Assembly: GCA_001548435.1 (NCBI GenBank)
Contig: AP017308.1
Coordinates: forward strand, 4,659,030-4,723,029
DNA: 64,000 nt
Direction of reading: 5' to 3'
Origin: Leptolyngbya sp. NIES-3755
GTDB taxonomy: Bacteria > Cyanobacteriota > Cyanobacteriia > Leptolyngbyales > Leptolyngbyaceae
The first letter of the stretch is position 1. Each line of letters opens with the position of its first letter. The translations under genes and the position numbers were made by a program. Shown piece by piece: positions 40,214-50,821 of this stretch. The notes under the pieces were generated by a model. The model worked only from the letters and a program-made list of their open reading frames with translations, was not told where the DNA came from and did no database searches.

Positions 40214-41878
40214 ATGCACATTTTAGAAACTATTATCCAAGCAATTTCAGACGGCAAAAGATTAGAAATTGAATTAATCTTTCAAGGCTTCTTCGTCCTA
40301 TTTTTCATCGGACTCATTCCTGCATTTTTAATCTTTCGATTTCGCAATTTGTTCGATCGATTCCTTCACCCCATTCTGTTATTCCTTGCCAGTCTCATTC
40401 TGCTCAATTACATTGGTTTGGTTCTTCTCTATCCGACATGGGCAGATTACGCCGATCCCGCTGAAGCAAATGTCGCGATCGTCTCTTGGCTTTTCCACCG
40501 GGGTCAGCCTCTCTATCCCGATTTAGATGCTCCTGAACGCTACATTAACAACTACGGTGCATTCTCTTACATCGTTCAAAGCCTATTTCTCAGCTTGCTC
40601 AGTCCCAGTATTTTCTCTTCAAAAGTCGCAGGCTGTTTGGCGGGACTGTCTAGTTTAGGCTTAATCTTTCTGCTGATTCGGCATCAATTAGGGTGGAAAT
40701 CGGCAATTTATGGAAGCGCGATCGTCTCTCTGTGTTTTCTCGCTCAAACTTCTGCATCGGGATTATTAACTTCATCGTTTTGGGTTAGACCCGATGCGTT
40801 ATTGCTATCTTTCACAGTATTGGGATTGTTTGTTGTCGTTCGAGGAAAGAAATGGGTCGCGATCGTGGGAAGTGCGATCGCACTCGGAATCAGCACGAAT
40901 CTAAAAATCACAGCCTTTCTCCATTTCATGCCAATCTATGTTTTATTACTTTATCGGTTCGGATTTGTTTCTATATTCATTTCATCGAGTATTACTTTAT
41001 TCATAACTGCATTACCTTATCTAATCTTTTCTCAAATCTCATTGGCGAATTATTGGACGTGGCTTCAGCAAGTTCGACGTAAAGGAATTAACCCTAATCA
41101 AATTCCAAAGAATCTTCTATGGACGGGATTTGTTGGAGTGCCAGTCGTAACAGCACTTTTCCAATCCGTTCTTACCGATTCCTTCAAACGTTGGCTTCCA
41201 AAAAATTTCCTTTTCTGCATCACTCTAATCATTGGAATTGTTGTCAATGCAGTGATTAGCTCGACTCGTGGCGCATTGGAAAATAATATGTTGCCATTTG
41301 TGCCACTATTCGTTTATCTGGCGATCGAGCTATTTCAAATCGCACAGCAGTCTAAGGTTCTGACTCCGATTAGTCTCAGTGCCGCGATCGCATTCACACT
41401 TTCTCTCTGTTTAGCAGTCTATTCAACTGAAGTGAAATTTGTCGATCGTATGATTACCGCGCCTGGACATCGAGCGATCTCAGATTTGAATCAATTCATG
41501 GCAGCGAATCCGAATCGCACGATCGGGATGGGATATGGCGCAGTTAGCTATCAACTCTCAAGCTATCGCCCGCAATTAGTATTCAAAGGCAATCCTTATC
41601 TACTAGATTCTGCTTCACTGATGGAAATGCAAGCATCGGGATTGAACAATACACCGGACAGTACGCTTAATGCTTTGAGAACTTGCCAAACCGAGATTTG
41701 GTTGATTCCAAAAGGGAAGCCACCGTTTCAGGTTTATAGTTACTATCCGCCCTTGCAAAAACTATTTAGTGATGAGTTTAGAAAGGTCTTTGCAGAGAAC
41801 TATGAGAAGCAATCTAGCACTGAATTCTATGATGCTTGGGTTTGTACTAAAACGAATCTGAACCCAGAAAAACCGTAA
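40214..41878 (+). CDS. Multi-span membrane glycosyltransferase (GT-C / ArnT-like)
   Basis: A 554-residue protein beginning MHILETIIQA (ATG at 40214) with about ten to twelve hydrophobic helices. The first extramembrane loop carries YADPAEANVAIVSWLFHRGQPLYPDLDAPERY, with the acidic residue pattern of GT-C transferases that use polyprenyl-phosphate sugars. A C-terminal periplasmic domain of about 140 residues follows. Donor and acceptor are unknown. It converges on the truncated LCP gene with a 32-nt overlap. Surface glycan assembly is the likely setting. Confidence 0.75.
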   Translation: MHILETIIQAISDGKRLEIELIFQGFFVLFFIGLIPAFLIFRFRNLFDRFLHPILLFLASLILLNYIGLVLLYPTWADYADPAEANVAIVSWLFHRGQPLYPDLDAPERYINNYGAFSYIVQSLFLSLLSPSIFSSKVAGCLAGLSSLGLIFLLIRHQLGWKSAIYGSAIVSLCFLAQTSASGLLTSSFWVRPDALLLSFTVLGLFVVVRGKKWVAIVGSAIALGISTNLKITAFLHFMPIYVLLLYRFGFVSIFISSSITLFITALPYLIFSQISLANYWTWLQQVRRKGINPNQIPKNLLWTGFVGVPVVTALFQSVLTDSFKRWLPKNFLFCITLIIGIVVNAVISSTRGALENNMLPFVPLFVYLAIELFQIAQQSKVLTPISLSAAIAFTLSLCLAVYSTEVKFVDRMITAPGHRAISDLNQFMAANPNRTIGMGYGAVSYQLSSYRPQLVFKGNPYLLDSASLMEMQASGLNNTPDSTLNALRTCQTEIWLIPKGKPPFQVYSYYPPLQKLFSDEFRKVFAENYEKQSSTEFYDAWVCTKTNLNPEKP

Positions 41879-42710
41879 CATCTGAAGTGACATCGCCCAC
41901 AGATGCGACCTGAATCTGTCCCTTGTTCAATGCCTTACTCACAAGTTCTGCCGCTTCAGGATTTCCATGTTCTGCAATCACCTGAGTTTTCGGCTCTAAC
42001 AATGGATCGTGATCACAACGATAGACATTGTTAAATCCTTGCTGTTTCAACCGTTGAATCGCTGAATTTGCAGCCTCGTCTGAGGGGGAAACGATCGCAA
42101 TTTTCATCTGAGTTGAGTCATCTTGAGTTTGAGCAACCGTAGGAACATTAAAATACCGACTGAGAATTGGCGGAATCGCATCAGAATCAGCGATCCAATA
42201 GCTTGCACTGAACTCAGATGGACGGCTGAATCGACCTGGGAGCATGACTAAATTCATACTCGATCGAGGAATTGTAGTCATGGTTCGATAAGTCGCCAGC
42301 ATTTCTTCGAGCGAAAAATCAGTGTCGGTGTTTTGCTGAACCACTTGTAAAACCTTTGGAAGCAGCGTGATCATTTGGGGCTGAAGCAGTTTTTGCATCA
42401 ATGCTTTGATCACTTCTTGCTGACGTTGAACTCGCCCAATATCACCTAATTCATCATGTCGAAATCGAACATATTCCTCTAAATGCTGTCCACTGAGCTT
42501 CTGAAGTCCAGGCTCAAAATGAATATTTAGATTTTGTGTGTGATCGACATAGTTCATTGCTTTCGGAATGTTGACCTCTAAACCTCCGATCGCATTAACT
42601 AAATGCACGAGTTCTTCAGTATCTACGCGAACATATCTGTCGATCGCAATTCCAGACAGCAGTTTACTTACCGTACTTTCTGCAATTGACACTCTCAGGT
42701 CTAAAGACAC
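41847..42710 (-). pseudogene. LytR-CpsA-Psr (LCP) family protein, 5'-truncated by an IS element
   Basis: The 287-codon frame has the second half of an LCP domain: GIAIDRYVRVDTEELVHLVN, NAIGGLEVNIPKAMNY, LSGQHLEEYVRFRHDELGD and IGRVQRQQEVI. A LytR_C-like domain follows at the C-terminus. The N-terminal membrane anchor and the first LCP strands (the DTIMV and SIPRDT regions) are missing. The frame now begins with a GTG inside the right-end hairpin of the tnpB element, and no 5' part was found on the other side. LCP proteins attach glycopolymers to the cell wall. It is likely inactive. Confidence 0.8.
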
Positions 42711-42714
42711 TGAG
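42694..42714. repeat. Right-end hairpin of the second tnpB element
   Basis: CTCAG (42694-42698) pairs with CTGAG (42710-42714), and GTCT pairs with AGAC inside, with one bulged base. It is 19/21 identical to the hairpin at 44321-44341. It overlaps the tnpB stop codon and the apparent GTG start of the truncated LCP frame. Confidence 0.7.
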
Positions 42715-44026
42715 ATTCTGCTGACAGGCGTTTAACCGTAGGCACTACCCACAGTTGAACCCTCGCTACGGTCGTCAAACACCGTCTACCCAGTTGGTTT
42801 AGGTCTATGCCTAACTTGCTGGCTACTTTTCTGAGAATATTCGCCGCTCCATTGAGATCAGCATTCACAATCGAGCCATCTGCGGACTGATACAAGCCAC
42901 GTCGAACACGGTTACCTGATGCTTTCCACCCGTCCGGTTTTTCTCCGAACTTGGGTAGGGAGTCGCCATCTAAGTAGCTTGCTTTCGATGTATAGGCTTC
43001 CTCAGTTTCCTCAAATCGAATCCCGTGTAATTCACAAAGCTGTTTTAGTCGGTCTTTCAGCTTGCCTAACGGCATCTGAACAAACGTTTGATTGTTCAAT
43101 CTGCCCATATTGGCATCTAGCTTAAAGCCTTGATTCCAGCCAATCACGAGCGTTCCAATGCCATATCTTAAACAGTGGCTAATCATTGACTTTGCTGCTT
43201 TATTGATGCCGTCTCTCATTTGATGGTTGCGCTTACGAGTCACACGGTCTAACCATCCATCCCAGTAAGCTTGTTCCTTGCCTTCTTTGCGAGTCGCTAC
43301 CTTTTTGTTCCATAGCTGATTCATCGCCTTCATTGCTCTAGCGTCAATCAGCAAAGAATTACCTAAAGTATCAACACAAGCAGCAAGATTATCGGCAGTT
43401 CCAAGATCAATCGATAATGCCTGATTCATATCAAGAGCGTTTGTCTGTAGCTTGACTTCGTAAGACAGTTCCAGATAGAACGCCCCATTTTTAGGCAGAA
43501 TCGTAAATTCTTTCACCTTGGCAATGTCAATGTTTGACGGCATTGGTAGAAAAAACTCAGACAACCCAAACCATCGTCTAACTGCTAACCCTAGAGAGAA
43601 TTTCAACCGACCATTCATCAAAATTGGTTTTTGCCCACCGGAATTGGGGTAGGCAACCTTGAATCGTTTTGAGCCTTTGAGGTAATCAGGCGCTTTCGGT
43701 TTGAAGTGCAACTGACCTTTAAGATACAAGTCGCGTAGTCCCTTGAACGATTTGAACGCCTCAATCACAGATCTTAGGGTTTGTTGCGCGGGTGTAGACG
43801 GTAGAGATTGGGCTACCGCAGTTTTAGAAACGGTTGGCTCAAAATCTAAATCAAACTTGCCTGTCAGAATTTTCCCAGTCTTGAAAAACGTCTGACGCGC
43901 AAAATAAACGCCGTTGTTGTAGTGCTTTCCTGACTGCTCACAAAGATAACGCAGAATCGATTCTGTCTCTTGATCTGGATGTAGCAAAACTTGCTGGACA
44001 CCCATTTGCTTTTTAATCTTTGCCAT
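42701..44026 (-). CDS. TnpB-family protein with divergent RuvC and no zinc ribbon
   Basis: The ATG at 44026 (MAKIKKQMGVQQ) has AAGG about 7 nt upstream; the TTG at 44041 is an alternative. The 441 residues carry RuvC motif I ALSIDLGTADN (about residue 205) and a late Asp in NADLNGAANIL. At the motif II position the Glu is replaced (TLVIGWNQGFKL), while a downstream acidic cluster (FEETEEAYTSKASYLDGD) could supply it. No CxxC pair exists in the zinc-ribbon position. Family membership is firm; nuclease activity is uncertain. The stop codon lies inside the right-end hairpin. Confidence 0.85.
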   Translation of the reverse strand: MAKIKKQMGVQQVLLHPDQETESILRYLCEQSGKHYNNGVYFARQTFFKTGKILTGKFDLDFEPTVSKTAVAQSLPSTPAQQTLRSVIEAFKSFKGLRDLYLKGQLHFKPKAPDYLKGSKRFKVAYPNSGGQKPILMNGRLKFSLGLAVRRWFGLSEFFLPMPSNIDIAKVKEFTILPKNGAFYLELSYEVKLQTNALDMNQALSIDLGTADNLAACVDTLGNSLLIDARAMKAMNQLWNKKVATRKEGKEQAYWDGWLDRVTRKRNHQMRDGINKAAKSMISHCLRYGIGTLVIGWNQGFKLDANMGRLNNQTFVQMPLGKLKDRLKQLCELHGIRFEETEEAYTSKASYLDGDSLPKFGEKPDGWKASGNRVRRGLYQSADGSIVNADLNGAANILRKVASKLGIDLNQLGRRCLTTVARVQLWVVPTVKRLSAESQCL

Positions 44027-44081
44027 TGATTCGACCTTCAATGATTGCTATACTGTCTAGTATACCAGATATAAACAGAAA

Positions 44082-44249
44082 ATGCCAACTCAGAAATTTA
44101 AGCCTAACGAGTCCGTTGCTTACGCTAAAACGCCTGTTCAGGTTAAGGTCTTGCCAGGGGTTCGAGAAAGATTGAAGACTGTACCAAACTGGCAAGACAA
44201 GCTGAGGCGGTTAATTGATCAATTAATCCAGGAAGAGTTAGGCGGTTAA
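44082..44249 (+). CDS. 55-aa protein encoded divergently from tnpB inside the element
   Basis: ATG at 44082 to TAA at 44249. The product is basic and helical (MPTQKFKPNESVAYAK, then PVQVKVLPGVRERLK, and WQDKLRRLIDQLIQEEL). It resembles short proteins that I believe accompany tnpB in other cyanobacterial elements. A ribbon-helix-helix-like or RNA-binding role is conceivable; neither is shown. It starts 55 bp from the tnpB start, so the two are divergent across a shared palindromic promoter region (44050-44065). Confidence 0.6.
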   Translation: MPTQKFKPNESVAYAKTPVQVKVLPGVRERLKTVPNWQDKLRRLIDQLIQEELGG

Positions 44250-44379: not shown

Positions 44380-45605
44380 CTAAGAACTAAGGCGTTTTTT
44401 GACTTGAGATGGAGTTTTATCAACAATTGTTTGATGCACGATCGCACCTCCAGCACTGAGTTGTAATTGTTTCCCGCGCCATTCGACCGTATTTCCGAAG
44501 AAGCCATAGCACCAGAGACAAAAGCTGAGACAATCTCGCAGCGGAACCGACCACAACAATCGTTTTGCGATCGCATCTTTCAAACATTGCACTCCAATAA
44601 ACCAAGCCGCAAGGTATCGGACTGTCCAAGTGATGGCGAGTAGCATTCCCGATGTCAGAGAAGGAGCAATCAAGAATAGAAGCAAGCTACTGACGGTTCC
44701 ATAAGTGAAAATCATCCAAGATAGCCCGTCGATCGTGCAAACCTGTTTCCCCGAAACCAACGAGTTTGATGCTGTAAAAGCTGCGGAATCGTGGCAGTTG
44801 AAAGCACATGATCCACGACATAATCTGAAAGTACGACTTGATAGCCTGCTTGTGCAGGAAGATTGCCCAATTGAAAATCATCACCGATATAATTCGCGAT
44901 CGCATTAAATCCACCAATCTCATTTAGAACCGATTGTCGAAGTACGATCGTGGCTCCAAACGCAAACGCCATTCCTTCTAGCTTTCGAGCGACTAATACA
45001 CCTGGTAAGAATTCGGTTGAAATCCCCAAAGCTTCAAAGGCAGAAACGAAATTATGCGATCGAGATCGATACAGACAAGTTACAACTCCAACTCTCGAAT
45101 CGCTCAAGGGCTGTACCACTTGTTTGAGATAGTTCGGACCCACCCAAATATCACTATCGGCAAGGACTAAAATCTCATGTTCTGCTTTGAGTGCAATGTT
45201 ATGGAGATTGTTCACTTTCGGATTGATCCCGATCGTGCGATGACTGATGACCAGTTGAATGTCTTGTTTGGGAAAATCTTCGATTAACTGTTTGACGATC
45301 GCAATACAAGGATCACTCGGATCTTGAGTTCCAAAAATAATCTGATAGTTCGGATAGTTCTGATTGCAGAATGAAGCTAGATTTTCATAAGTATTATCAT
45401 CCAAGCCGCAAACGGGTTTTAGGATGGTTACTGGAGGCTGAAAATTGCTATTTTGCGATCGCTTCGGACGAAAGAACTGAATCGCAGCCTGAATCGAAAA
45501 GAGATAGAAAAAAACTGTCGATAAACTCAGAACAAACAATACTGCAAATAGCAGATACTCCGCATCCTGAAGCAGAGTTTGAACAGTCGTAAGTGGATGA
45601 TTCAT
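44380..45605 (-). pseudogene. hpnI: HpnI-type glycosyltransferase (GT21 / ceramide-glucosyltransferase-like), frameshifted
   Basis: Frame A (45605-44712, 297 codons) has an N-terminal membrane helix and a complete GT2/21 catalytic set: VTILKPVCGLDDN, LADSDIWVG (DxD), NYIGDDFQLG and QHQTRWFRGNR (QxxRW). It then stops just after STGYLG. The adjacent frame continues MIFTYGTVSSLLLFLIAP with three to four membrane helices to 44380. One missing base near 44715 separates them; repair gives about 408 residues, the family size. HpnI transfers N-acetylglucosamine to bacteriohopanetetrol. Without repair the C-terminal membrane helices are lost. It is the last gene of a five-gene operon. Confidence 0.85.
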
Positions 45606-45624
45606 CGTCTAACATTGGGTGAAG

Positions 45625-45999
45625 TTAACCGATCGAGACAAACGCCGCACCAATACACACCAACAGAGTCCCAAACAATCGAGCCGGAGTAATTCGCTCT
45701 TGTAGAACATACCGCGCTCCAATCAAGCTAAATAGATAAGTCAGAGCCGTTGAGGGATATACAAAGCTAAGATTCGCCCAACTTAGGAGCGAGATGAAAA
45801 GGAAGAATGCGATCGTCAAAGAGAAAATCCCACACAGAATCTGAAAGTTGCTTAAAACGCGCAACAATCGACGCGGCAAAGTTCTCAAAGGTAATGGCTG
45901 AAAGTCACCCAGTTGTTTCATTCCTGCGGTGAGATACACATTTCCGATCGAGTCGGTCAATATCAGGATTAGTAACGTAATCCAAGTTCTGCCTTCCAT
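45625..45999 (-). CDS. SMR/EamA-type four-helix transporter half (second of pair)
   Basis: A 124-residue protein with four helices: ITLLILILTDSIGNVYLTAG, LSLTIAFFLFISLLSWANL, FVYPSTALTYLFSLIGARYVL and a last one ending GTLLVCIGAAFVS. SFVYPSTALTY followed by a Glu-containing turn (LQERITPARL) is typical of EamA halves such as the ArnE/ArnF flippase subunits. With its neighbour, 5 bp upstream, it probably forms a heterodimer. It lies 19 bp before the HpnI gene. Confidence 0.82.
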   Translation of the reverse strand: MEGRTWITLLILILTDSIGNVYLTAGMKQLGDFQPLPLRTLPRRLLRVLSNFQILCGIFSLTIAFFLFISLLSWANLSFVYPSTALTYLFSLIGARYVLQERITPARLFGTLLVCIGAAFVSIG

Positions 46000-46004
46000 T
46001 GTTC

Positions 46005-46391
46005 TTACCTTGACTGTTTTTGCTCATCCCATCCCACAACAAACGCGCCTGCTGTAATAATGCAAGTCCCGAACAACCGAGGGGCTGATACATGTTCGCG
46101 CAGAATAAAGATTGCTAATGCGGTGCTCAGAACATACGTAAAGGCAGTAATGGGCAGCACATAGCTTAAATCAAACCGCGAAAGTGCTACGAGATAGAGA
46201 ATCAGACTGGTAATCAAAAAAGCAATTCCCAACCAGATCCACGGACTGGTGAGGAACTGAATCGCGATCGCAATAAACGATCCCAAATCGATCACATTTA
46301 CTGCTCCGATATTCCGCATTCCCCGACTCAGCCAAACATCTCCAAACACTTGACACACGATATGCAGCAAAATGACGATCGTTCGGTTCAT
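46005..46391 (-). CDS. SMR/EamA-type four-helix transporter half (first of pair)
   Basis: A 128-residue four-helix protein. VILLHIVCQVFGDVWLSRGM forms helix 1, IWLGIAFLITSLILYLVALS helix 2, and SYVLPITAFTYVLSTALAIF with LREHVSAPRLFG leads to helix 4. It is similar in plan to its downstream neighbour but clearly diverged, as in ArnE/ArnF-like heterodimers. It overlaps the HpnK stop by 4 nt (ATGA). By context it would flip the glycolipid made by the HpnI-type transferase (inference). Confidence 0.82.
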   Translation of the reverse strand: MNRTIVILLHIVCQVFGDVWLSRGMRNIGAVNVIDLGSFIAIAIQFLTSPWIWLGIAFLITSLILYLVALSRFDLSYVLPITAFTYVLSTALAIFILREHVSAPRLFGTCIITAGAFVVGWDEQKQSR

Positions 46392-47242
46392 CCAATCGAT
46401 CCCACCCGTTCAAATCCGTGTTGTTCAAGCGCATCTCGAACTCGATCGCTTAATAGTGCCTCTAGTTCTGCAAATCCCAGATTTAAAGGTGCATTACTCG
46501 GCTCTCCTGGAACTGCGATCGCGGGATGCGAATAGATCTCCACGACATTCGCAGTAATTCTCGGAATCAGTTCAAGCAAATACGACTCGGTAATTCGTCC
46601 AGTTTGTAGCAAACCATAAACGCGATCAGCAAATTGAATTCGATGGTTTTTCAAAAGGGTCTCTCCATAGCGTCGTAGTCCAGTAAAAACAACTGAACCA
46701 ACGGTTTTGGCAACTCTACCCGAAGCATCGATCGCAAGGGCAATCTTGAGTTCTTCGGATGGCAGGCGAATTTCAGGAATTTCAAACTCTGTTGCTAAGT
46801 CAACTAAATGCTTTAGAACAATCGGATGTGAATGTAGATGCAAATGTCCATCGACATGAGAAAGCTTTAAGCCTGTTTGCCGAAATTTCTCAAGCTGAGC
46901 ACGAATTTCAAGGGGAAGTTCTTGACGTGCTTTGGCATTAAATTGATAGTTCAATCCAGCTTGAGCCGGATCATCTATGAAGCGACCCTGAGCATTGACG
47001 AGATTTGGAATCTGTTCAGGAGAAAGTACCGATCGACCCATTCCTAGAACCAGATGTAATCCAACTGCTAGAGAAGGATTTGCTTTAGCAAGCTCGATCG
47101 CATCTTCAACGGCATCTCCCGTAATCATCAAGCTCGTACTGGTCAGCACCCCTTTCTGATGAGCCGTCACGATTGCTTGATTTACCCCAGTCGAAAAGCC
47201 AAAATCATCCCCATTAATCCGCACTAAACGACGATTTGGCAT
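46388..47242 (-). CDS. hpnK: HpnK/ChbG (YdjC) family carbohydrate deacetylase
   Basis: A 284-residue YdjC-fold protein. RINGDDFGFSTGVNQAI holds the metal-binding Asp, VGLHLVLG the first His, and SHVDGHLHLHSHP the His cluster. IYSHPAIAVPGEPS near the C-terminus is conserved in the family. HpnK removes the acetyl group from the HpnI product to give the glucosamine form of the hopanoid. Coupled at both ends: a 1-nt overlap with the ferritin-like gene (TAATG) and 4 nt with the first SMR gene. Confidence 0.9.
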   Translation of the reverse strand: MPNRRLVRINGDDFGFSTGVNQAIVTAHQKGVLTSTSLMITGDAVEDAIELAKANPSLAVGLHLVLGMGRSVLSPEQIPNLVNAQGRFIDDPAQAGLNYQFNAKARQELPLEIRAQLEKFRQTGLKLSHVDGHLHLHSHPIVLKHLVDLATEFEIPEIRLPSEELKIALAIDASGRVAKTVGSVVFTGLRRYGETLLKNHRIQFADRVYGLLQTGRITESYLLELIPRITANVVEIYSHPAIAVPGEPSNAPLNLGFAELEALLSDRVRDALEQHGFERVGSIG

Positions 47243-48108
47243 TAGCTACTCGCTTCTACTTTCATTTCAGTAGATCGTTTGAGCAACAGGGTCGCTGCTT
47301 TGAGTGCGATCGAGGCAAGTTTCGGTAGCAATCGCGGTTCAAGTAAGCGATCGTCAAATTTGCTCATCCGTTTCTGATTCTCGTGAATCGTCGCAGATAA
47401 GAACTGTGGCAGTGTCAAATCATCAACAAAAGTTTTCGCTCCGGTTGCTGTAAATCCACCACTATTACCATCAGTCGTGAGCACCATTTTGCCCATGTTA
47501 AATAAAGCTCGACCGTAGTGCAGTAGTGAATGTGCACCGCGTAGAATATTCGCTCTACCCTTTTGCGCCTGAGCGTATGTAATCCAATTGATAAAGAACA
47601 CGATGTGCCGCGCTTCTTCATCCAAAATTGGATCAAACAAAGTGAACATAGATTCTGGTAGATAGTTCGCTTCTCGTGCCAATCCGAACATTCCAAAAGC
47701 GAAAAACGAATCTAAGCATTCCTCGAATCCAAAGTCCGTGAATGCGAGATTGACATTCTTCGGTAATACAGCAGCGGGAGGTTCTTCGACCTGCAAATCA
47801 TAGTGGCGAATCAGACAATCAATCAGTCGAGCATGGCGGGCTTCTTCTTCGCCTTGAAGTGCGATCGCGGCTCGAATATCGGGATCATCGATCGTATTCG
47901 CCATTGCGCTCACCATCAGTCCCGCTTCTCGCTCAGTGCTGAGTGCAATTTGCCAGAATGGAATTCGTCTTAAGCGTTCTAGCTCAGTTTCGTTTAGTTC
48001 TGGAAATGCGATCGTCTCCGGTTCATAGTGAAGATGGGTATTGATAAAATTCTGACAAAAAAGCTGTTTATGTTCTTCTGATCCAAGCTTCATAGACATA
48101 GACACCAC
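47242..48108 (-). CDS. Ferritin-like di-iron domain protein
   Basis: A 288-residue helical protein with two helix-pair iron motifs: STEREAGLM with GEEEARHARLIDCLI, and GLAREANYL with LDEEARHIVFFINW. These make a classic E...ExxH pair. Such proteins include oxygenases and oxidases (AurF/CmlI-type), but the reaction here is unknown. As first gene of the operon with HpnK and the SMR pair, it may hydroxylate or desaturate the lipid part of the product (inference). The start may be any of the Met codons at 48108, 48099 or 48093. Confidence 0.8.
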   Translation of the reverse strand: MVSMSMKLGSEEHKQLFCQNFINTHLHYEPETIAFPELNETELERLRRIPFWQIALSTEREAGLMVSAMANTIDDPDIRAAIALQGEEEARHARLIDCLIRHYDLQVEEPPAAVLPKNVNLAFTDFGFEECLDSFFAFGMFGLAREANYLPESMFTLFDPILDEEARHIVFFINWITYAQAQKGRANILRGAHSLLHYGRALFNMGKMVLTTDGNSGGFTATGAKTFVDDLTLPQFLSATIHENQKRMSKFDDRLLEPRLLPKLASIALKAATLLLKRSTEMKVEASS

Positions 48109-48222: not shown

Positions 48223-48696
48223 TTATTTCTTGATTTCAGAGGGTTCTTCAAGCTTTGCTACAAAGCGACTCGCTGAATCCTTTAGGCTGAGATTGCCTCT
48301 GAGAATGGTTTTGTCGATCGTACTTTGAATCGAAATTTGCGAATTCTCACATCCTTGAATCTGCGGCAAAGTTCCTGATAGTTCTAAATTCGGCTGCCTA
48401 AACTTTCCGGTTAAAGAGGGTTTCTTTTTAGAAGCCGTTTGTTCTTGAGTGGAATGGGGCGTTTCTAAAATTGAGCCGTTTAGATAAACACCAGATTGGT
48501 CGATCGACAAAATCAGATCTTTGCCTCTCAAGCATCCCGGTAAATCTGTTGCTGATAGTTTGTACCGTCCTGAAATTTTCGGCTGTGCTTTCAAGTTCGC
48601 TTCTCCGTAGTTCGTCACCAGACTGAAAAGTGCAATCACAAACGCGATCGTACCTCCATAAAACGTCAGCCATTTCGCACTAAACAAGCCTTTCAT
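48223..48696 (-). CDS. Single-span membrane protein of unknown function
   Basis: The ATG at 48696 is preceded by GGAGG at ideal spacing; the frame upstream adds only a TTG. An N-terminal helix (about 11-28) is followed by a 125-residue beta-rich outer domain with three Cys (LPGCLRGK, IQGCENSQ and neighbours). No family was recognised. Its start lies within the end of the antiporter gene (17-nt overlap), so the two are coupled, and it may be an accessory subunit. A decayed copy of its C-terminal part lies at 32695-32820. Confidence 0.75.
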   Translation of the reverse strand: MKGLFSAKWLTFYGGTIAFVIALFSLVTNYGEANLKAQPKISGRYKLSATDLPGCLRGKDLILSIDQSGVYLNGSILETPHSTQEQTASKKKPSLTGKFRQPNLELSGTLPQIQGCENSQISIQSTIDKTILRGNLSLKDSASRFVAKLEEPSEIKK

Positions 48697-50821
48697 GAGC
48701 AACCTCCAACAGCGATATGAGATGCGATGATTGGTTATGTCTCCGCGTGATTAAGAGCGACGATCGGCATTCTGTTGCTAGTTCATCGGTATACCGTCCT
48801 AAAGTTTGCCGCTCGATTCCCCATTCACGACTGGTTCCAGCGATCGTTAAATCTGCTTGTTCTGAAGCTTCGATCACGGCTTGAATTGGGGAACTGGCTT
48901 CGATGATCGGTAACTCAATCCGGCGACGAATGCGATCGGGAAGTCGATCGAGCATTGCATTAAATTCAGAACTAAGCTCACTAAACGGTTGCACTCTCAA
49001 AATCTTCAATTGCGTCTGTTCTCGATTGATCAAAAGCCGTAGAGCAAGTTCTAAACCTAAATCAGTGTGGAGGTTTGGAACATAAGGAAGTAAGAGATTT
49101 TCGAGCTTTGTGGACTGTCGATCGACAAATACAGCAACATCCACGGGAGCACTGGTTAAGATTTCTCCGACTCTTCCGCCCAATCGATTGTTGTGAAATG
49201 CGGGACGATGCCAACCGACTAGGATCAAATTTGCTCGATCGCGTATTGCAATCTGAGCGGTGGCGCGGGCAACATCCCGATCGACTTGGACAATCGAATT
49301 GACGTAACGGCGATATTCCGCAGGTTCTAAGGTTTGAATCAATTTTTCAAGCTTCTCAGTCGTACGGGCAATTTGACGGTTTGCCTCAATCGGAAGGCTC
49401 TCGTAGACGTAATCCTCATCGAGTTGAATCAAACTTAAGGGAGTGACGATCGCGGTTTTTTTAGAAGAATTACCAATCGCGATCGACATGGCGAGTTCAA
49501 TTAATCCTCTTTGTGTGGTTGGATTCGCAATTGGAACTAGCACATGATACTGATTAGATTCAGAAACACTTTCCTGATCAATTGAGTGTTGTCGAATTTG
49601 TTGCTTTGGATAAATTAACTCTAACAATGGTGATGTCATAAATGTAGTTACTAGCGCCATAATGACAAGCATCGTGAAGAGTAATGGCGAGATCACATTT
49701 AAGCTCAAACCAATGTTCAAAACGATTAGCTCAGTTAAACCGCGAGTATTCATTAACCAACCCAGTGCTGAAGCTTCTCGTTTCTCGACTCCTGAAACTC
49801 TTGCAGCCACGTAAGTTCCGACGTATTTTCCGACGATCGCAACCGCAACGACGATCGCACAAAGTCCCCAAAGTATCGGACGATTCAGCAATCCAATCTG
49901 AGTTCGTAACCCACTATAGGCAAAGAATACAGGTAATAGAAACGTTAGAACAAAATCCTCTGTTTTTTGAGCCAATTCGCGGGTTAAGCCAGGGTGTTTT
50001 GGCATGGTCACGCCAACGAGAAACGCTCCGAAAATTAGATGAATTCCGATTAGTTCAGTGATTAAGGCAGAAATCACCACCACCATGTAGATGATTGCGA
50101 GAACGGTTTGGGTCAGTCTGCCTCTACGATCGTAGATCATTGCAAACTTTTTCAAGAGCCAGCGTCCGACGGTGAGCATAATCGCGATATAAGCGATCGA
50201 TTCTAGAACGGTAGGAATGGCAGCGATCATATTGTTGTAGCGGGTAACTGCGATCGCTAATGCCAATAAACACCAAGCTGTAACATCATCGACTGCCGCA
50301 CAAGTTAACGCTAAAGCACCAAGACGACTATTCTGTAGATTATTTTCTGTGATAATTCTTGCCAATACTGGAAATGCCGTAATCGACATCGCTGCACCTA
50401 AAAATAACGCAAACGCTGTAAACGATACGCCACTATACGAAACTAATGGATACAACAATAGAGAAGCTAACGTTCCGAGTGAAAATGGAACTAATATGCT
50501 GACATGCGAAACCAGAATCGCTACATTCAACCCGTTTTTAAGATATTTGGGATCGAGTTCCAATCCGATTAAGAACATGAAAAAGATCAGCCCAATCTGA
50601 GACAAAACACCGAGAAATGGAATTGTTTCAGGTGGGAATAACCATGCAGCCGTATTCGGTGCAACCATGCCAAATAGCGACGGACCTAGCATAATTCCTG
50701 CTACAATTTCACCGATGACAAGCGGTTGATTGAGCCGTCGAAATCCAAGCCCGACCAGGCGCGATAATCCGATAACTAGAATAATCTGAATTAAAACTTG
50801 GACAACAACATCGAGGTGCAT
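48680..50821 (-). CDS. CPA2 family cation:proton antiporter with C-terminal Usp-like region
   Basis: The 713-residue protein has about 12 to 13 membrane helices over residues 1-390, with the CPA2 core elements GEIVAGIMLGPSL, FFMFLIGLELDPKYL and CAAVDDVTAWCLLALAIA (the ion-binding DD-like site). Residues about 430-700 are a soluble region with two Usp-like halves (YHVLVPIANPTTQRGLIELA, LLPYVPNLHTDLGLELAL). It exchanges Na+ or K+ for protons, with the soluble part probably sensing nucleotides. The start is at 50821. Confidence 0.93.
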   Translation of the reverse strand: MHLDVVVQVLIQIILVIGLSRLVGLGFRRLNQPLVIGEIVAGIMLGPSLFGMVAPNTAAWLFPPETIPFLGVLSQIGLIFFMFLIGLELDPKYLKNGLNVAILVSHVSILVPFSLGTLASLLLYPLVSYSGVSFTAFALFLGAAMSITAFPVLARIITENNLQNSRLGALALTCAAVDDVTAWCLLALAIAVTRYNNMIAAIPTVLESIAYIAIMLTVGRWLLKKFAMIYDRRGRLTQTVLAIIYMVVVISALITELIGIHLIFGAFLVGVTMPKHPGLTRELAQKTEDFVLTFLLPVFFAYSGLRTQIGLLNRPILWGLCAIVVAVAIVGKYVGTYVAARVSGVEKREASALGWLMNTRGLTELIVLNIGLSLNVISPLLFTMLVIMALVTTFMTSPLLELIYPKQQIRQHSIDQESVSESNQYHVLVPIANPTTQRGLIELAMSIAIGNSSKKTAIVTPLSLIQLDEDYVYESLPIEANRQIARTTEKLEKLIQTLEPAEYRRYVNSIVQVDRDVARATAQIAIRDRANLILVGWHRPAFHNNRLGGRVGEILTSAPVDVAVFVDRQSTKLENLLLPYVPNLHTDLGLELALRLLINREQTQLKILRVQPFSELSSEFNAMLDRLPDRIRRRIELPIIEASSPIQAVIEASEQADLTIAGTSREWGIERQTLGRYTDELATECRSSLLITRRHNQSSHLISLLEVAHERLV

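Follow-up and report, generated by a model that had tools for sequence, protein, structure and literature searches.

A five-gene operon on the minus strand of Leptolyngbya sp. NIES-3755 encodes a ferritin-like di-iron protein (FER), the hopanoid enzymes HpnK and HpnI, and, between these two, a pair of short membrane proteins (SMR1 and SMR2). The operon was examined within a stretch of 64,000 nucleotides (contig AP017308.1, positions 4,659,030 to 4,723,029), the whole of which is referred to as the window. We consider it reasonably probable, though well short of certain, that the operon serves to modify the polyol side chain of bacteriohopanepolyols (BHPs) and that FER is the side-chain hydroxylase that makes bacteriohopane pentols and hexols. 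In the proposed scheme, HpnI, HpnK, and HpnJ would perform the steps known from the literature, namely the addition of N-acetylglucosamine to bacteriohopanetetrol (BHT), its deacetylation, and the formation of the cyclitol ether, and FER would act as a di-iron oxygenase that uses O2 to oxygenate an unactivated C-H position of the BHP side chain and so produces pentols. The family membership of HpnI and HpnK, the gene linkage, the co-occurrence of FER with HpnH, the ligand conservation, and the predicted fold are the observed parts of this proposal.

A survey published in November 2025 described the genes for pentols and hexols as unknown and reported that a look around hpn clusters had revealed no candidate (PMC12583986). 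Among the matches listed in a search of the open-license literature, no title or abstract start proposed a ferritin-like, diiron, hydroxylase, or oxygenase enzyme for hopanoids, a result that is not proof of absence. Hopanoids are cholesterol-like lipids of bacteria, BHPs are among the most used molecular fossils, and the FER family offers a concrete candidate for this biosynthetic question. If the proposal is true, the sources of pentols and their oxygen need could be read from genomes.

The FER protein and its association with hopanoid genes

FER was called as a protein of 288 amino acids (47242..48108, minus strand), although translation probably begins at the internal ATG near 48093, given that most relatives begin MKxGS. 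The Pfam search of the window protein returned no family match. The sequence carries the di-iron carboxylate motif of paired E and ExxH on four helices (E59, E89xxH92, E130, and E165xxH168), and the putative ligands E59, E89, H92, E130, E165, and H168 (288-residue numbering) were invariant in all 106 related domains. In the AlphaFold model (mean pLDDT 91.5), these ligands were located on helices 51-69, 75-102, 118-145, and 151-181 (287-residue numbering). The solved folds nearest to the model in Foldseek were R2lox and ribonucleotide reductase R2 (best E 0.005), and comparison with both (VIA) yielded Z values of 14.6 and below at 7-15% identity for an all-helical bundle. FER is thus predicted to fold like R2-type di-metal proteins; because such Z values can reflect a common arrangement in helical bundles, the ligand pattern is the stronger argument. 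Single FER members gave weak Pfam matches to Rubrerythrin (19/59), AurF (10/59), Ferritin_2 (4/59), and the R2 model (1/59). We infer a di-iron center, an oxygenase activity, and a BHP substrate for FER from its sequence, its modeled structure, and its genomic company.

The distribution of FER followed that of HpnH. Among 385 alphaproteobacterial genomes (thresholds of E ≤ 1e-10 for FER and E ≤ 1e-60 for HpnH), 27 were FER-positive and 106 were HpnH-positive, and all 27 were within the 106. The same was found for Cyanobacteria (n = 252), where all 42 FER-positive genomes were among the 119 with HpnH. When these two classes, to which the co-occurrence figures apply, were pooled (637 genomes), HpnH was present in 69/69 FER-positive genomes and FER in 0/412 HpnH-negative genomes. 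The Fisher values (5e-17 for Alphaproteobacteria and 2e-16 for Cyanobacteria) ignore kinship and overstate the evidence, yet both classes agree. Named FER-positive proteobacterial genomes had HpnH over the cut-off in 28 of 28 cases, compared with 0 of 14 control genomes. In Gammaproteobacteria, 29 of 219 genomes were HpnH-positive, and FER, which was searched for in these 29 only and not in the 190 HpnH-negative genomes, was found in three. Because FER is present in a minority of hopanoid makers, its pattern is that of an optional tailoring step rather than of a core step.

The same counts bear on whether FER oxidizes the BHP side chain in a different way (for example, to a keto intermediate) or acts in the step from ribosylhopane to BHT, a role that we regard as quite improbable. 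The authors of the survey speculated on an oxo intermediate for pentols, and the BHT-forming enzyme is given there as not established (PMC12583986). However, 77 of the 119 HpnH-positive cyanobacteria and 79 of the 106 HpnH-positive alphaproteobacteria had no FER match; FER is therefore unlikely to be needed for BHT itself, and it was rejected as a candidate for the BHT-forming enzyme. In addition, the usual reactions of di-iron carboxylate enzymes are oxygen insertion and desaturation, which also counts against such a role.

FER was also linked to hopanoid genes in gene order. It was found in 22 of the 58 relatives searched; all three genus-mates with FER (G003, G005, and G007) keep the five genes in the same order, and four others (G001, G002, G004, and G006) gave no FER match. 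A scan of named contigs covered the best 80 of at least 523 confirmed FER relatives, of which, judged by title, 52 loci are cyanobacterial and 28 proteobacterial, with flanks of up to 10 kb that were often shortened by contig ends. The absence of a genus from this best-80 list is not evidence that it lacks FER; an example is Dolichospermum, for which one study reported cyclitol ether without pentol (PMC5642901). At least one other hpn gene was located within the flanks of 44/52 cyanobacterial and 8/28 proteobacterial loci. Cyanobacterial FER genes occurred in two settings. In the first, FER clusters with HpnI and often with HpnK and a B12-binding radical SAM protein, and the two such proteins tested pass the HpnJ model. 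In the second, which comprises many of the remaining loci, FER has as neighbors an HpnG-like phosphorylase, the tested member of which scored below the HpnG cut-off, and genes that, where tested, pass the HpnA and HpnH models. A few loci (e.g., L041 and L043) showed none of these neighbors.

Gene order differed among genomes. One relative (G048) has the order FER-HpnJ-SMR1-SMR2-HpnI, and four alphaproteobacterial loci (L121, L124, L130, and L132) have HpnI-HpnJ-HpnK-FER1-FER2, where FER1 and FER2 denote the two types described in the next section. Cupriavidus metallidurans carries FER1 near HpnA and HpnH. Gluconacetobacter, Nguyenibacter, and Acetobacter fallax carry a FER1-FER2 tandem with no hpn gene nearby, and in Burkholderia cenocepacia and Caballeronia sp. 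SBC1, FER1 is carried by a megareplicon, of which the 18.8 kb retrieved revealed no hpn gene. Additional genomes with FER near HpnK, HpnJ, HpnI, HpnA, or HpnH were also identified (L173 and L175-L179).

These results can be set against the view that FER is an iron- or peroxide-handling protein that is merely co-regulated with hopanoid stress responses and is no lipid enzyme. The weak similarity to Rubrerythrin and Ferritin_2 would fit such a protein, but the restriction to HpnH-positive genomes in two classes, the repeated placement in hpn operons, and the existence of fused FER1-FER2 copies are unexpected for a stress ferritin, and we consider this view highly improbable. The first-pass annotation of the window had treated the di-iron gene as an extra; it proved instead to be the most informative part of the operon, being confined to HpnH-positive genomes in two classes and traveling with hopanoid genes even at loci that lack the transporter. 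That annotation had named two outcomes that would speak against its interpretation, namely a ferritin-like gene or membrane pair not conserved beside hpnI and hpnK in relatives, and a non-hopanoid transferase in a strain lacking hopanoids. Neither was found, because the operon is conserved next to hpnI and hpnK, the transferase is HpnI by a curated model, and the genome has HpnH and squalene-hopene cyclase.

FER clades and the chemistry of pentols and hexols

In a maximum-likelihood tree of 106 domains, 24 rows, all of them proteobacterial, formed a clade (FER1) apart from the rest with a support of 100/100, and the second alphaproteobacterial copy (FER2) nested among the cyanobacterial sequences. 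FER2 was found in 8 of the 27 FER-positive Alphaproteobacteria, five of which also have a clear FER1 and two a FER1-like copy; the second copy of the eighth, G454, was unclassified. For the remaining 19, the FER1 model outscored the FER2 model, although the margin was narrow for L160 and L161 is a fragment. Several of these 19 fell outside the strict FER1 clade in a quick tree, and the gammaproteobacterial L170 scored equally with both models; therefore, further FER subgroups exist. Cyanobacterial loci carry the FER2 type alone, and Gluconacetobacter and similar genomes carry FER1 and FER2 together.

Both FER domains were fused in a single frame of about 580-620 amino acids at four loci (L106, L108, L116, and L122), and L127 is a possible further fusion with both domains in one frame of 1353 amino acids; the fusion suggests that the two domains act in sequence or as a dimer. 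Other features of FER clusters were observed as well. Two HpnI-like genes are present at L033, L034, L037, and L063, where a second sugar acceptor or a second sugar is possible. At several Nostocales loci (e.g., L060, L074, and L084), an RND efflux-type permease is placed divergently between HpnA and FER-HpnG and is a possible cyanobacterial hopanoid exporter. FER matches were fragmentary in G043:C368, G047:C1:4157510-4157830, and G513:C81, which are possibly decaying genes.

More tentatively, and with less than even confidence, we suggest that the two FER clades are ancient and set the regiochemistry of pentols, such that gene content would predict the cyanobacterial 30,32,33,34,35-pentol, the proteobacterial 31,32,33,34,35-pentol, and the hexols; the products would depend on O2, and the cyanobacterial pentol would then be an oxygen-linked marker. 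Proteobacterial FER1 would act at C-31, and the FER2 type, present in cyanobacteria and as the second copy of some alphaproteobacteria, would act at C-30; the FER2-type gene of the window would accordingly be a candidate C-30 hydroxylase, and genomes with both FER1 and FER2 would make hexols. In the alphaproteobacterial survey, pentols were recognized by homohopan-31-ol, which places a hydroxyl at C-31 of the pentol, and hexols were found in Rhodospirillales only (PMC12583986). Pentols are commonly reported in cyanobacteria, and the 30,32,33,34,35-pentol is described as seen in cyanobacteria only (PMC5642901). With FER1 in proteobacteria, the FER2 type alone in cyanobacteria, and both in Gluconacetobacter, the distribution of the clades thus matches the known pentol and hexol chemistry.

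Two named genotype-phenotype matches were identified. Gluconacetobacter diazotrophicus PA 5 is listed with 6% pentol and hexol BHPs (PMC12583986 Table 3), and G. diazotrophicus PA1 5 (L118) carries FER1 and FER2, in agreement with that phenotype. In a metabolomics study, features of B. cenocepacia were annotated as cyclitol ethers of bacteriohopanepentol and of bacteriohopenepentol, and each of the three strains tested showed the latter (PMC8560942); B. cenocepacia CMCC(B)23006, a strain other than those analyzed for lipids, carries FER1. These matches, the second of which is drawn across strains, are only two and do not constitute a test.

Pentols and ring unsaturation occur together in acetic acid bacteria and in Burkholderia, and the main rival to a hydroxylase is therefore a di-iron desaturase that makes the Delta6 or Delta11 double bond of the hopanoid ring by chemistry like that of acyl-ACP desaturases. 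The predicted fold class is the same, and the plant desaturase 2uw1 was among the Foldseek rows. Acetic acid bacteria, a group that includes the FER1- and FER2-carrying Gluconacetobacter and Acetobacter fallax, commonly contain unsaturated hopanoids (PMC12583986), and B. cenocepacia has an unsaturated cyclitol ether (PMC8560942). However, among the 48 BHP-making strains of Table 3 (PMC12583986), whose FER status was not looked up, 21 had pentol or hexol and 14 had unsaturation; seven had more than 1% pentol or hexol without unsaturation, and one (Afipia) showed the reverse. The presence of FER in 42 of 119 HpnH-positive cyanobacteria also fits the pentols commonly reported in this group better than it fits ring unsaturation, and we consider the desaturase unlikely. 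To our knowledge, ring unsaturation of hopanoids is rare in cyanobacteria.

Several observations weigh against a side-chain hydroxylase. FER matched no characterized oxygenase above noise, and 20 of the 28 named proteobacterial loci had no hpn gene in the fetched flanks. The methanotroph-like genome G807, in which two pmoA-family matches were found, has just one FER gene, of the FER2 type. Since the aminopentol of type I methanotrophs is oxygenated at C-30 as well as at C-31, either no aminopentol is made there, one enzyme serves both positions, or the proposed regiochemistry is wrong; the HpnH-positive genomes G699, G845, and G884, which carry a pmoA/amoA-family gene, have no FER. Apart from pentols, G. 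diazotrophicus contains 49% unsaturated BHPs (PMC12583986 Table 3), and B. cenocepacia also has unsaturated BHPs (PMC8560942), so that FER may be a desaturase in these organisms. Rhodopila LVNP has bacteriohopanepentol cyclitol ether in a study with both anoxic and oxic cultures (PMC8590665), and a pentol formed without O2 would need another enzyme. Enterovirga, a member of Hyphomicrobiales, is listed with 1% pentol and hexol in Table 3, whereas the text states that the order has none (PMC12583986). A possible absence of FER from Hyphomicrobiales could be judged from one FER-negative genome, G445. The underlying 16S search, which misses genes, yielded a match in 12 of 80 genomes tried from the 106 HpnH-positive Alphaproteobacteria, none in G. 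diazotrophicus (G071), and a match in 9 of 14 controls. Placements were compared with named plasmid records for three genomes, too few to test the absence of FER from that order: the 16S of G424 (FER-positive) was nearest to Azospirillum (91.9%) and 98.4% identical to that of G348 (also FER-positive), that of G445 was nearest to Bosea/Methylosinus (about 92%), and that of G113 (FER-negative) was nearest to Skermanella (89%).

Hopanoid genes and the half-transporter pair in this strain

The listing of open reading frames (ORFs) confirmed the arrangement of the five genes reported in the first-pass annotation, in the order FER, HpnK, SMR1, SMR2, and HpnI: FER and HpnK overlap by 1 nt, HpnK and SMR1 overlap by 4 nt, and gaps of 5 and 19 nt separate SMR1 from SMR2 and SMR2 from HpnI, respectively. 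The identities assigned there to HpnK and HpnI also held. HpnK, the BHT-N-acetylglucosamine deacetylase of the YdjC family (46388..47242, minus strand), scored above the TIGR03473 cut-off (281.2 bits vs 232.6) and matched PF04794, and the upstream part of HpnI, the BHT N-acetylglucosaminyltransferase, scored above the TIGR03472 cut-off on its own (318.4 bits vs 310). The lesion suspected in this transferase was located as a one-base gap near window position 44715 relative to all three genus-mates compared. The gene is split into a frameshift-shortened catalytic part of 297 amino acids (44712..45605, minus strand) and a C-terminal part in another frame (44380..44760, minus strand; TIGR03472 profile positions 291-371). 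In G003, G005, and G007, HpnI is uninterrupted (397-403 amino acids), with the catalytic and C-terminal parts continuous.

By gene content, this genome (G000) is that of a BHP producer, with both squalene-hopene cyclase (TIGR01507, 885.8 bits; G000:C1:4535-6475) and HpnH (TIGR03470, over the cut-off; G000:C1:431320-432279). HpnJ (TIGR03471, E ≤ 1e-100) was not found in this genome (99.99% complete) or in G003 (1060 contigs, 96% complete). It was present in 14 of the 58 relatives, including G005 and G007, where it is at a locus other than the operon. HpnI, HpnK, and HpnJ are hopanoid cyclitol-ether genes (Schmerk et al. 2015, cited in PMC12583986). Because HpnJ was found in 10 of the 12 genomes (this one included) with FER beside HpnI, the usual end product of HpnI and HpnK in that group would be a cyclitol ether rather than a free glucosaminyl lipid; the first-pass annotation had suggested a dedicated export route for a glucosaminyl lipid. 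None of the 10 other FER-positive relatives has HpnJ. Since no HpnJ was found and HpnI is frameshifted, this strain probably makes neither glucosaminyl nor cyclitol hopanoids, and the branch leading to the cyclitol ether is probably broken. FER is intact, from which we predict that the strain contains free pentols without composite ones. Overall, the earlier interpretation was partly supported.

SMR2 (45625..45999, minus strand) passes the Pfam EamA model (34 bits vs 28.2), and SMR1 (46005..46391, minus strand) falls just below it at 25.1 bits; SMR2 gave no NCBIfam match at E ≤ 0.001. An SMR-related transporter was present in 10 of the 52 cyanobacterial FER loci among the best 80, as a split pair in L055, L056, L072, and L101 and as a fused protein of 266-298 amino acids in L063, L064, L069, L075, L077, and L078. 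Of the six fused genes, four (L069, L075, L077, and L078) are flanked by HpnK and HpnI, that of L063 is flanked by HpnJ and HpnI, and that of L064 comes immediately after FER. For each fused protein, the N half scored higher with the SMR1 than with the SMR2 model, and the C half showed the opposite preference, which makes SMR1 and SMR2 counterparts of the respective halves and supports a single functional unit of two unlike halves. The two halves thus behave as one unit, but membership of the ArnE/ArnF family, with which the first-pass annotation had compared them, was not supported: SMR1 reached only 21.3 bits against the ArnE cut-off of 92. The fused relatives weakly matched a CMP-sialic acid transporter (E 0.0018). 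Foldseek with the fused-transporter model (mean pLDDT 76) yielded no significant match (E 0.035 and probability 0.41 for the best row), and drug/metabolite transporters and the SMR protein Gdx-Clo, none significant, were lower in that list.

From these arrangements, we infer a flippase role, in which SMR1 and SMR2 would pair as a single heterodimer, a transporter of the drug/metabolite superfamily, and carry the amino-sugar hopanoid or a precursor of it across the membrane. The pair might instead carry something else, such as a small cation or amine, and merely share the transcript, as a related transporter was found at just 10 of the 52 cyanobacterial loci with FER. However, nine of the ten loci have the transporter, split or fused, either within the FER/HpnI cluster or immediately behind FER, and the remaining one (L072) has it behind an HpnI gene about 7 kb from FER; we consider an unrelated cargo somewhat unlikely.

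Around the operon, an ORF of 159 amino acids (48223-48702) was rejected as a sixth gene; the three genus-mates instead have an ORF of 842 amino acids upstream. On the other side, an IS605-type OrfB/TnpB-like gene (42701-44041, minus strand; PF01385 and PF07282) is directly upstream of a LytR-CpsA-Psr gene (41847-42710, minus strand), the match of which covers the 150-position Pfam model only from position 55 onward, as though the N-terminal part had been lost to an insertion. A divergent ORF of 55 amino acids at 44082-44249 had no Pfam match.

Comparison with known systems

FER would share with R2lox and ribonucleotide reductase R2 the four-helix di-metal carboxylate fold (for the model, Z values of about 13-14.6 across roughly 200-240 residues), whereas its identity to them is 7-16% and the R2 Pfam model matches one of 59 members, weakly. 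R2lox binds a long-chain lipid. MiaE, the tRNA (ms2io6A) hydroxylase, is a di-iron enzyme that oxidizes an isoprenoid side chain, and a MiaE-like protein was the first match of FER in the sequence-profile search of the PDB (E 0.0023); however, the match is weak and covers profile positions 54-171 only, and the substrate of MiaE is unrelated. Similar to ArnE/ArnF and other SMR/EamA transporters, SMR1 and SMR2 are two short membrane proteins encoded by adjacent genes in an amino-sugar-lipid operon and show EamA/DMT similarity. In contrast to ArnE/ArnF, SMR1 is far below the ArnE cut-off (21 of 92 bits), and the pair is fused elsewhere into a protein of about 270-300 amino acids. The closest described system is that of hpnI-hpnK-hpnJ for the cyclitol ether. 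The operon differs from it in having FER and the half-transporter pair, neither of which is in the described pathway, and this strain differs in its frameshifted HpnI and in that no HpnJ was found; the two systems agree in that HpnI and HpnK both pass the curated models and in that HpnJ is part of the cluster in many relatives.

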